Of a stretch of 64,000 nt of DNA, positions 40,682 to 46,479 are shown piece by piece (the first letter of the stretch is position 1; every line of letters starts with the position of its first letter). Under the pieces are notes generated by a model. That model ran no database searches, was not told the DNA's origin, and saw only the letters and a program-made list of their open reading frames with translations. The translations under genes were made by a program, and so were the position numbers. The DNA is from Nitrospirota bacterium (lineage in GTDB: Bacteria; Nitrospirota; Nitrospiria; Nitrospirales; Nitrospiraceae), in assembly GCA_030645475.1 (NCBI GenBank), contig JAUSMA010000029.1, positions 62,001 through 126,000 on the forward strand. Direction: 5' to 3'.

Positions 40682-43600
40682 ATGGCGGCGGCGAAGAAGA
40701 CCTCTCGAACCAACGCCACGGCCGAGCGCGGCGCCACGCACAAGGCCGCCAAGCGGCAGCCGGTCAAGGGCAGACGTCCTCCGGCTGAGACCGTTCCATC
40801 GATACCTCTGCTCACAGAACCGCCCGGTTTTCTCATTGTCGGGATCGGCGCCTCCGCCGGCGGCTTGGAGGCCATGGAAGCCTTTTTCCACCACATGCCC
40901 CCCGGCAGCGGGATGGCCTTCGTCGTGGTGTCGCACCAGCATGCGGGCCATGTCAGTCTTCTCCCGAGCCTGCTCAGTAAATGCACCGCGATGCCGGTGT
41001 TGGAGGCCAAGGACGGGATGGCGGTGGAGGCCAATGGCGTCTATATGGCGCCGGGTGGCATCAATCTGGCTATCCTGCACGGCATCCTGCACTTCATGGA
41101 TGCCCCGACGAAAGAACGCGTGCCGCTGCCCATCGATTATTTTTTCCGTTCGCTGGCGGAAGACCAGAAACAACGAGCCGTCGGCATCGTCCTGTCCGGG
41201 ACCGGCAGCGACGGCACCGTGGGGTTGCGCACGATCAAGGCCGAGTCCGGCCTGACGATCGCGCAAGATCCGCAGTCGGCCAAGTATCAGAGCATGCCGC
41301 GCAGCGCGATCGATGCCGGGGTGGCCGATGTGGTGCAGCCGGTGGAGAAGATGGCTGAGCCGTTGCGCGCCTATGCGCGGAGCCGCACCACACCGGCGAC
41401 GCTCCTGCCTGCACGTGAGGCCTCGCAGGCGCTGCATAAGATCTTCATCCTCTTGCGCGACCGGACCGGGAACGATTTCGCGCGGTATAAAGAGAATACG
41501 ATTCACCGGCGCATCGAACGACGGATGAATGTGCATCAAATCGAAAATCTGAAGTCGTATCTCCGGTTTCTCCAGGCGAATCCGCACGAACTCGATGCCC
41601 TGTTTCAGGAACTGCTGATCGGCGTCACCAGTTTCTTTCGCGACCCGCAGGCCTTCGAGGTCCTCGAACAGAAAGTGCTGCCCGCGCTCGTGGAGGGCAA
41701 GCCGGAGGGTGCGATCCTGCGGCTGTGGGTGGCCGGCTGTTCCACCGGAGAGGAGGCCTATTCGCTCGCCATCCTCTTCCGGGAATTGCTGACGCAGAAG
41801 AAGCTCCGCCTCACCATCCAGATCTTTGCATCCGATCTCGACAGCCGGGCCATCGACGCGGCGCGCGCCGGCCTCTATCCGGTCGGCATCGCCGAGGACC
41901 TCACCCCGGCGCGCCTGCAGCGGTTCTTTACCAAGGAAGACAGCCGCTATCGGGTCAAGAAGGAGATTCGGGATCTGGTGGTGTTTGCCCAGCATAACCT
42001 CCTGACCGATGCCCCCTTTACGAAGCTGGATCTCCTGTCTTGCCGCAATCTCCTGATCTATCTGGATGCTCAGGCCCAGCACAACATCCTGCCGCTGTTC
42101 CACTATGCCTTGAAGCCGAACGGTGTGCTGTTTCTCGGTACCTCCGAAACGGTCGGCGAGTACGATCAGCTCTTTACCGTCATTGACCGGAAATGGAAGT
42201 TGTTCAGGCGGACGGCGGAGCTCGGCACGGTTCCTCGACTGGAACGGTTTCCCCATGGATCGATGAAAGGGACCACCGAGATCCGTGCGGAGGCGGACGC
42301 GGCTCTTCTCCCCACTCGTCCCGCCTCCATCCCCACGTTGATCCAGCAGCTCCTGGTCTCGCGGTATGCGCCGTCGGCCGTCGTGGTAAATGCTCGGGGC
42401 GAAGTCGTCTACATCCATGGGCATACCGGGGCCTATCTGGAACCGGCGCCCGGCCAGCCGACCCACCATCTGATCGAGATGGCGCGGGAAGGGTTGCGGC
42501 ACGATCTGGCGGCCGCGCTCCATCAGGCCGCCGGCCAGGAGGAGGACGTCGTGCGCCGCGGACTCCGCCTGCGCGCCAACGGCGAGGTCATCCTGGTCGA
42601 TCTGCTCGTGAAAAAAATTGCCGAGCCGGAGGCCCTCCGGGGCCTGCTCCTCGTGACGTTCGATACGGTGCGTCCGGGAAAGGCCGCCGTGAGCAAGGGC
42701 GTATCGGCGCGAGCGGCCGCTCCGTTGAAGAAAGGGGAGCCTGGACTGATGCAGGAATTGGAGTTCACCAAGCAGCGGTTGCAACGGACGATCGAGGAAC
42801 TGCAAACCTCCAATGAAGAGCTGAAGTCCACCAACGAGGAATTGCAATCCACGAACGAAGAGCTGCAAAGCACCAACGAGGAATTGGAGACGGCGAAGGA
42901 AGAGCTGCAGTCCCTCAATGAAGAACTCCTGACGGTCAATGCCGAACTCCAGGGCAAGCTCGATGCGCTCGCAGAGGCGCACGACGATCTGCAGAACCTC
43001 TTGAACAGCACCGAGATCGCCACGATCTTTCTGGACAACGAGTTGCGCATCAAGCGGTTCACCTCGGAGGCGAAGCGGGTGAGTTGCCTGATCGCCGTCG
43101 ATGTCGGACGCCCCCTGTCGGACATCGTCTCGAAGCTGGTCGATGACCGGCTGCTGGAGGATGCGCAGGACGTGCTGCAGACGCTCGTCGTCAAGGAGCG
43201 GGACGTCCAGACCACCGACGGGAGCTGGTTTGCCATGCGGATCCTGCCTTATCGCACCGGCAAGAACAGCATCGACGGACTGGTGTTGACGTTTCTCAAC
43301 ATCACCAAGAGCAAGGAGGCGGAGCAGGCCGTCCAGGCGACGCGCAGCGTGGCCGCCAGCATCGTCGAGACGATGCGTGAACCCCTGCTCGTCTTGGACG
43401 ACCAGCTCCGCGTGGTTTTGGCCAATCAGTCCTTCTACCGGATCTTTCAGGTGCAGCCGCGCGAGGTCGAGCAGCAGCTCCTCTACCATCTCTGCGCCGG
43501 GGCCTGGAACAGGCCGGATTTACGCCATCTGCTGGAGGAGATTCTGCCGAAGAACCGCTCCTTCCAGGACTTCATTGTGGACCAGACGTTTCCTCACATC

Positions 43601-43717
43601 GGACGTAGGTTATTGATGCTCAATGGCCGCCGACTCGAACAGGCGCTGGTCTTACCAGGCAGAATTTTGTTGGCGATGGAAGAAGTGAAGGCCGAGGGGA
43701 AGGCTGAAGGGGGTTAG
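40682..43717 (+). CDS. CheB-CheR-PAS fusion protein
   Basis: 1011 aa. Residues about 50-240 are a CheB-type methylesterase ([11 protein letters not shown], active Ser; VVSHQHAGH, His; [12 protein letters not shown], Asp). About 250-515 are a CheR-type methyltransferase ([17 protein letters not shown], SAM site; [10 protein letters not shown]). About 690-775 is a heptad coiled coil made of repeats of [20 protein letters not shown] type. Two PAS-like domains end the protein. No histidine kinase domain. ATG 40682 follows GAGGAG. Probably methylates or demethylates a sensor or acts as a scaffold for the kinase that follows; the target is unknown. Confidence 0.92.
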   Translation: [1011 protein letters not shown]

Positions 43718-45835: not shown

Positions 45836-46479
45836 AGAGGCCGCGCGTCCTCATGGCCGATGACCATTCGCTGATCCTCGCCGGCTTGCGGAAGTTGGTG
45901 GAGGCTGACTGCGACGTGGTGGGCACGGTGGAGGACGGGCGGGCGTTAGTGGAGGCGGCGCAGCAGCTGCGGCCGGATCTGATTCTCCTGGACATCTCGA
46001 TGCCGCTCTTAAACGGGCTCGAAGCGGCCCGGCAACTCCGCACCCTGGTGCCGGACTGCAAACTCATCTTCCTCACCATGCATGCCAGCCCGACCTATGC
46101 GACCGAAGCCTTCCAGGCCGGGGCCTCCGGCTATCTCCTCAAACGGTCTGCGGCCTCGGAACTCGGTCTGGCGATCGCGTCCGTCCTTCAAGGCCAACAT
46201 TATCTGACGCCGCTGCTCACGAAAGAGGTGCTGGACTCGGTTCTCAAGCCCTCCACCGGCGAGCGAGGCAATCCTGTCTCCGGCGCGCTCACCGCGCGTC
46301 AGCGCGAAGTTTTGCAGCTCGTCGCCGAAGGCCATGGCACGAAGGAGATCGCCACGATCCTCAGTGTGTCGGTGAAAACGGTGGAGTTCCATAAGTCCCG
46401 CATCATGCAGCATCTGGATCTTCACACCACGGCGGACTTGACCAAGTACGCGATTACCCACGGCATCACCGGCCTCTAG
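45832..46479 (+). CDS. NarL/LuxR-family response regulator
   Basis: 215 aa. Receiver domain with acidic pocket ADDH and phospho-accepting Asp in LILLDISMP; GYLLKRSA carries the conserved Lys. LuxR-type HTH at the C terminus (LTARQREVLQLVAEGHGTKEIATILSVSVKTVEFHKSRIMQHL). Overlaps the kinase stop (ATGA), so they form a two-component system. Confidence 0.95.
   Translation: MKRPRVLMADDHSLILAGLRKLVEADCDVVGTVEDGRALVEAAQQLRPDLILLDISMPLLNGLEAARQLRTLVPDCKLIFLTMHASPTYATEAFQAGASGYLLKRSAASELGLAIASVLQGQHYLTPLLTKEVLDSVLKPSTGERGNPVSGALTARQREVLQLVAEGHGTKEIATILSVSVKTVEFHKSRIMQHLDLHTTADLTKYAITHGITGL

Follow-up and report, generated by a model that had tools for sequence, protein, structure and literature searches.

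A CheB-CheR-PAS fusion with a repeated Glu-Glu coil as a possible receptor-style adaptation device for two-component kinases

The window analyzed here is a stretch of 64,000 nucleotides from a Nitrospirota bacterium (assembly GCA_030645475.1, contig JAUSMA010000029.1, referred to as C29 herein, positions 62001-126000; genome of 3.7 Mb, 99.9% complete). Its subject is a gene that fuses a CheB methylesterase, a CheR methyltransferase, PAS domains and a long coil in one chain, followed by genes for a sensor kinase and a NarL-type response regulator. An earlier note, made from the DNA letters alone, had given correct coordinates for this locus and had proposed that receptor-style methylation may tune a two-component system. 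That proposal gains from a conserved kinase coupling and from enzymes that stay intact in genomes without methyl-accepting chemotaxis proteins (MCPs), and our preferred reading, to which we assign a probability of roughly 0.48, is that the fusion serves a two-component system as a self-contained adaptation device of the receptor type. We depart from the earlier note on the acceptor. The likeliest one appears to be the fusion's own coil and not the kinase, because the Glu pairs of the coil are near-invariant while D, A, N, R and H all occur at the pair in the kinase helix. What we observed directly is the domain anatomy, the intact catalytic residues, the kinase linkage, the persistence of the fusion in genomes without chemotaxis proteins and the extreme conservation of its coil.

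Fused enzymes and the Glu-Glu coil

The CheB and CheR domains share one open reading frame with no internal stop (Table 1), and Pfam divided the CheR part into CheR_N (residues 251-301) and CheR (residues 315-505, E 7.3e-56). We count three PAS folds in the fusion because the separate model of residues 550-663 matches PAS domains; the Foldseek and VIA-align rows listed for this model are PAS or PAS-like sensor domains. Pfam found no HisKA or HATPase domain in the fusion, nor Response_reg or MCPsignal (PF00015), and apart from generic PAS no NCBIfam model scored above its cut-off on it. Since its CheB has no receiver domain, CheA cannot control this esterase in the canonical way. The CheB residues S58, H85 and D177 are kept in 57 of 59 fusions less than 90% identical, and the CheR residues R320, E358, D385, R455 and N456 in all 59, in a survey confined to fusions that have a PAS_10 match and are not split by assembly frame breaks. 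Judged by these residues, whose roles are those seen in CheB and CheR structures, both enzymes appear intact. The earlier note's description of a fusion with retained esterase and methyltransferase residues and a long TNEEL-type coil ending in PAS, but with no kinase, is thus confirmed by Pfam and the predicted helix, and its catalytic part extends to the homologues.

No part of the fusion is better conserved than its coil. In 33 sequences less than 70% identical (a set that excludes loci L024, L026, L031, L037 and L038), the mean frequency of the commonest residue is 0.78 in the coil, compared with 0.61 in CheR, 0.59 in CheB, 0.58 in PAS_10 and 0.40 in the middle PAS. Similarly, among ten Nitrospira fusions the ratio of nonsynonymous to synonymous differences (pN/pS) is 0.114 in the coil versus 0.240-0.418 elsewhere, with similar synonymous divergence; repeat homogenisation was rejected as the source of the coil's similarity, its synonymous divergence (0.376) being like that elsewhere. 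Glu-Glu pairs recur every seven residues, at 705/706, 712/713, 719/720, 726/727, 733/734, 740/741 and 747/748, and are followed by Glu755. Glu720, Glu726, Glu727, Glu747 and Glu748 do not vary, either in the 33 sequences or in a set of 47. Coiled coils normally keep their buried positions while exposed ones drift; here, in contrast, two adjacent Glu per heptad are retained. The length of the segment varies by whole heptads, being mostly 93 amino acids, 79 in L129 and 100 in L120 and L132.

The main substitute for Glu in these pairs is Gln. At the coil Glu columns we counted 29 substitutions by Gln and three by Asp, versus 22 and 34, respectively, at Glu columns elsewhere in the fusion (Fisher p 1.5e-6, only a guide since the sequences are related). 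CheB is known to deamidate Gln as well, and Gln in place of Glu is tolerated at adaptation sites. Gln sites in Tsr and TlpT are given in PMC6829392, which also states the strict MCP methylation consensus as [ASTG][ASTG]xx[EQ][EQ]xx[ASTG][ASTG]. Its downstream half, [EQ][EQ]xx[ASTG][ASTG], matches five pairs in the window fusion. At least four such half-motifs lie within 60 residues in 89 of 97 coil proteins; five MCPs have one to three each, and 349 of 365 other reading frames have none or one, all classes being set by motif patterns and the coil class being picked by patterns that themselves contain Glu-Glu. The fusions at L035, L075 and L078 were filed outside the coil class in this survey, and near-identical proteins from overlapping loci were partly retained.

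Some copies of the fusion are interrupted. Frame breaks split those at L024, L026, L028, L037, L149 (genome G340) and L150 (G363), either through assembly errors or through real gene fission. At L031 (7884-12310, the same gene as in L050/L066, genome G007) a PAS-HisKA_3-like sequence interrupts the fusion inside CheR, after which the fusion resumes; this may be a rearrangement, an insertion or an assembly chimera.

Kinase partners and genomes without chemotaxis proteins

A coil model built from 29 coil regions matched 31 of 146 genomes drawn from the class, giving 31 proteins. CheR lies immediately upstream of the coil in all 30 loci fetched, 28 times in the same frame and twice split from it by a frame break, so that no coil without CheR was found among them; the remaining coil protein (G353) likewise has CheR upstream. 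Four weak matches in the genus and one in G016, considered as coil-only proteins without CheR, proved to be PAS-type kinases without Glu-Glu heptads.

Ten of these 31 are fused to a kinase. Among the 21 without one, a histidine kinase is directly next on the same strand in 18 (11 HisKA_3, seven HisKA); of the last three, one has a kinase two genes on, one has a PAS-GGDEF-EAL gene next and one has only cheB next. Seven of the 18 kinase-paired loci also have a NarL-type regulator downstream on the same strand. The fusion-kinase layout was also found outside the class, in Verrucomicrobia (L029), in a contig labelled Uhrbacteria (L030, a short contig of a metagenome-assembled genome (MAG) whose host is uncertain), in Bacteroidota (L106-L109, L115, L116, L118), in Deinococcus (L121) and in Mesorhizobium (L122), and kinase-fused versions occur at L034, L035, L038 and L114 and in the window's own genus (L052/L101). 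Thirteen Bacteroidota neighbourhoods, taken from high-scoring matches and not at random, comprise seven with a kinase next, four in which the fusion is solitary, one with a divergent kinase-like gene and one with a fused kinase. In our judgment, the fusion is probably coupled to its adjacent kinase. The earlier note had claimed coupling to a NarX-type kinase rather than to CheA; the kinase coupling is supported, but the NarX-type label does not reach beyond this lineage, the partners being HisKA_3, HisKA and also GGDEF-EAL proteins. A NarX-type kinase as something special to the fusion was therefore rejected.

In part of its range the fusion persists without chemotaxis proteins. With one query and a limit of E 1e-60, in genomes requested at 90% completeness, 79 of 247 Bacteroidota genomes carry the fusion, and the MCP signalling domain is missing from 61 of them. 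This figure includes G041, the fourth MCP-less carrier of a smaller test of 27 genomes; the other three, G038, G042 and G045, are additional. A CheW-domain match, which would cover CheA too, was found in none of these 64 MCP-less carriers. In fusions from the chemotaxis-less genomes, the eight catalytic and 13 coil Glu columns examined are unchanged in all 27 non-redundant sequences, many of which come from one related genome group and so do not represent 27 independent events. Because these Bacteroidota have no MCP, CheW or CheA match, the enzymes cannot serve chemotaxis there, and in MCP-less Bacteroidota lineages they are kept for something other than MCPs. We consider it very probable that the fusion family acts outside chemotaxis.

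For the window genome the case is less direct. The earlier note's statement that no chemotaxis receptor or CheA is nearby agrees with C29, on which we found no MCP or CheW match; MCP genes do occur elsewhere in the genome (four MCP and seven CheW matches, all on contigs C24, C60 and C68). Because MCPs are present, a non-MCP role of the fusion in this genome is something we infer, and a role on MCPs is possible. On C68 we also noted a CheB fragment (C68:119485-119604) and an MCP match with an internal TGA (C68:131173-131532) near another MCP/CheW pair, possibly a second che locus in decay.

Proposed mechanism and competing readings

In the mechanism that we propose, the PAS domains flanking the long helix would sense a signal, likely redox or a small molecule. 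The CheR part would methylate Glu of the repeated Glu-Glu pairs in the coil of its own protein, acting within one chain or between the chains of a dimer, and the CheB part, which has no receiver domain to tie it to CheA, would demethylate or deamidate Glu and Gln at these pairs. The methylation state may then shift the packing of the helix and send a signal through PAS_10 to an output module, either fused on the same chain or encoded next door; here this would be the PAS-HisKA_3 kinase, passing phosphate to the NarL-type regulator. Methylation of the coil, contact between fusion and kinase and the resulting adaptation are steps that we infer. The coil as substrate is the simplest account of the data, since CheR, CheB and coil occur jointly whether or not MCPs are present, and the coil is the most constrained part; we regard the coil as methyl acceptor as an evenly balanced call. 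A broader version, in which CheR, CheB and a multi-site coil in one chain form a widespread methyl-accepting module independent of chemoreceptors, with HisKA_3 kinases, HisKA hybrids and GGDEF-EAL proteins as interchangeable outputs and with adaptation and memory like those of MCP arrays, is put forward tentatively.

Several observations weigh against this proposal. Of the 97 coil proteins, 88 do not contain the strict ten-residue MCP consensus, since Gln, Lys or Glu mostly occupies the position four residues ahead of the pair; the lack of this upstream half is a genuine deviation, and it is chiefly why we do not rate the coil as acceptor more highly. The register of the pairs is ambiguous from sequence, as they could occupy heptad positions b/c (with an Asn core) or f/g (with a Leu and Thr/Ala/Val core). 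The full model has a predicted template modelling score (pTM) of 0.30 and gives no support for the coil reaching the CheR or CheB active site. In four of the 13 Bacteroidota loci that were fetched, no kinase adjoins the fusion, and the N-terminal helix of the kinase is present also in members of the genus without the fusion. The window genome has MCPs, CheA and an unlinked che cluster on C24 with its own CheB and CheR. Lastly, the fusion of a Gallionellaceae MAG (L032) adjoins separate cheR and cheB genes, and a Shewanella locus (L130) has an MCP gene near a CheB-CheR relative. As to the latter two loci, the Gallionellaceae fusion (L032 5997-14048) is followed by a PAS-GGDEF-EAL gene with the same N-terminal helix as the kinase partners. 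The Shewanella relative lies on a plasmid (L130 10444-11463), where its annotation reads EAL-domain protein, and a PAS-MCP gene is found 1.4 kb downstream of it.

The best-placed alternative, which we nevertheless consider unlikely, is that CheR and CheB methylate the neighbouring kinase, for instance on its N-terminal helix HQIELEMQNEEL, and that the coil only dimerises or docks. It is the closest to the earlier note's view and to the RsbM/RsbK system of Bacillus cereus. According to PMC4574943, RsbM is an orphan methyltransferase without a cognate methylesterase; its target is the S-helix of RsbK, a hybrid kinase, and by methylating it RsbM sets two-component output. Methylation of a kinase helix by a CheR-type enzyme therefore has precedent. 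As with RsbM, RsbK and RsbY, the methyltransferase gene adjoins a sensor kinase here; the differences are that CheB is fused to CheR and that the proposed acceptor would lie in the same chain. The partners do share an N-terminal helix (consensus ELxVHQIELEMQNEEL, then PAS), found by a strict pattern in 29 of 40 with near-variants among the misses, and in the window genome this front end matches the adjacent kinase only, despite 50 HATPase_c matches. Both GGDEF-EAL partners (L032 and L184) carry the helix too, which suggests that the output is exchangeable while the front end stays. However, the Glu pair of the partner helix varies (EE, DE, EA, EN, HE, QE, RE), unlike the coil, ten of the 31 class proteins keep the coil although their kinase is fused, and the four solitary Bacteroidota loci have no adjoining partner. 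We rejected the kinase helix as sole methyl acceptor, its pair being too variable, and also as an exclusive marker of fusion partners, given its presence in genus members without the fusion.

Slightly less probable is that the coil is conserved as a binding face, or as an inhibitory pseudosubstrate in the CheR or CheB site that gates action elsewhere. The Asn, Ser/Thr and Lys positions of the coil are conserved in the 33 sequences besides Glu, which agrees with this reading, and the strict co-occurrence with CheR fits a pseudosubstrate equally well; seven tandem near-identical pairs and the preference for Gln, on the other hand, are more easily explained by a multi-site substrate than by one docking site. 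Least probable is that the fusion supplies accessory adaptation enzymes to unlinked MCPs, its kinase neighbourhood being incidental or feeding sensory input to taxis: MCPs and che clusters in the window genome and in all nine high-quality genomes among the 27 tested, the Gallionellaceae and Shewanella loci, and an Azospirillum CheR/CheB fusion that reportedly affects chemotaxis and cysts would agree with it, but most Bacteroidota carriers have no MCP, the CheB part has no receiver domain, the window genome's che cluster has a separate CheB and CheR, and the conserved neighbours are kinases and not MCPs.

Locus, known systems and wider meaning

The adjacent genes are as the earlier note had described them, a soluble PAS-HisKA_3 kinase and a LuxR-type regulator (Table 1). 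The kinase has no stretch of membrane-helix strength, the largest 19-residue Kyte-Doolittle mean being 1.50, and the regulator start overlaps the kinase stop by 4 nucleotides. His253 of the kinase aligns with the haem-binding histidine of FixL, and the FixL-like PAS2 gives no more than a hint of an oxygen or redox signal.

Table 1. Features of the fusion locus in window coordinates; pLDDT, predicted local distance difference test score; SAM, S-adenosylmethionine.
Feature	Position	Strand	Basis
CheB-CheR-PAS-coil-PAS_10-PAS fusion, 1011 amino acids, without kinase domain	40682..43717	+	Pfam; ATG with GAGGAG upstream
CheB methylesterase, residues 53-226, without the receiver domain of canonical CheB; Ser58, His85, Asp177	40838..41359	+	Pfam CheB_methylest, E 1.7e-53
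CheR N-terminal helical and SAM-binding methyltransferase domains, residues 251-505	41432..42196	+	Pfam; motifs TSFFR, STGEE, SDLD, CRN
Third PAS fold, residues 550-663, without Pfam match	42329..42670	+	Separate structure model, mean pLDDT 83.9
Single predicted helix, residues 686-776, linking two PAS domains	42737..43009	+	Structure model, pLDDT about 80 here, whole-model pTM 0.30
Proposed methyl-accepting coil, residues 705-757	42794..42952	+	Sequence conservation
PAS_10 domain, residues 770-875	42989..43306	+	Pfam
C-terminal PAS (PAS_4), residues 893-974	43358..43603	+	Pfam
Soluble PAS-PAS-PAS-HisKA_3-HATPase_c sensor kinase, 684 amino acids, phosphoacceptor His490 in ELHDD	43781..45835	+	Pfam
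Kinase N-terminal helix with ELQVHQIELEMQNEEL, common to most fusion partner proteins	43886..43978	+	Sequence comparison
FixL-like PAS of the kinase (PAS2)	44369..44710	+	Among solved structures nearest to FixL
NarL/LuxR-type response regulator (REC and GerE), Asp54	45832..46479	+	Pfam
Second receiver-only regulator, Asp55	46775..47227	+	Pfam; a REC-only gene likewise lies downstream in several relatives

Genes for Hsp20, CBS-domain and other stress-type proteins flank the locus (35648-37201 and 48009-50434), a hint that the regulator may serve a stress response. Intergenic palindromes at 43701-43764, 39064-39113, 46496-46613 and 36531-36667 resemble a family of repeated intergenic hairpins, and the first two have AGGCTGAAGG in common. 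The palindrome at 43701-43764, between fusion and kinase, folds strongly (minimum free energy -47.1 kcal/mol, z -5.45). We considered it as a terminator between the two genes and rejected this since it has no T run and resembles the other intergenic palindromes of the window; no role was assigned to it.

By domain content the window fusion is a member of the CheB/CheR fusion proteins, in which both catalytic domains stand in one chain, often with PAS and a kinase, and which are covered by KEGG entry K13924. The class is known by name and filed under chemotaxis, whereas here the conserved context is a two-component kinase and the family is present without MCP, CheW or CheA matches. We found 253 plasmid records that carry a relative, one of them annotated cheBR, and tables for Geobacter in PMC8396549 count cheBR fusions. 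Searches of the open-licence PubMed Central (PMC) literature turned up no account of how CheB/CheR fusions work or of their coil. We add evidence that this family, taken as a whole, is not one of chemotaxis proteins, and a specific candidate substrate inside the protein, neither of which appeared in the literature searched; the proposed mechanism would be new.

Several known systems share parts of this arrangement. As in the adaptation helices of Tar/Tsr-type MCPs, the Glu/Gln pairs of the coil stand in heptad register with small residues after them, but the fusion lacks the MCP signalling domain, the upstream small-residue half-consensus and the CheB receiver. From the canonical chemotaxis adaptation module it also differs in having no linkage to MCP, CheA or CheW genes on C29, with L032 as the counter-case. 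The S-helix is likewise a helical linker between signalling modules (PMC1592074); it is a segment of around 40 residues, whereas the coil has about 90 residues of near-identical Glu-Glu heptads. The kinase core (HisKA_3 and HATPase_c) and the REC-GerE regulator resemble NarX/NarL, but the kinase is soluble, has three PAS domains and lies downstream of a methylation fusion, and both proteins stay far below the equivalog cut-offs (96.4 bits versus 578 for NarX; 114 versus 250 for NarL). CheR has been reported to methylate PhoP, and the CheR-confirmed site named in that paper is an arginine (PMC8546571). Lastly, a chemosensory pathway of Comamonas testosteroni without CheB and CheR has a receptor without methylation sites (PMC6391922); this is the same logic as our coil-substrate argument, in reverse.

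The hypothesis specifies candidate residues for methylation. Textbooks explain precise adaptation by reversible glutamate methylation, which has been tied almost wholly to chemoreceptors. If the fusion does carry its own substrate helix, adaptation by methylation would be a portable module for gene-regulating kinases and cyclic-di-GMP enzymes, and many proteins annotated as "chemotaxis protein CheB" would be mislabelled.

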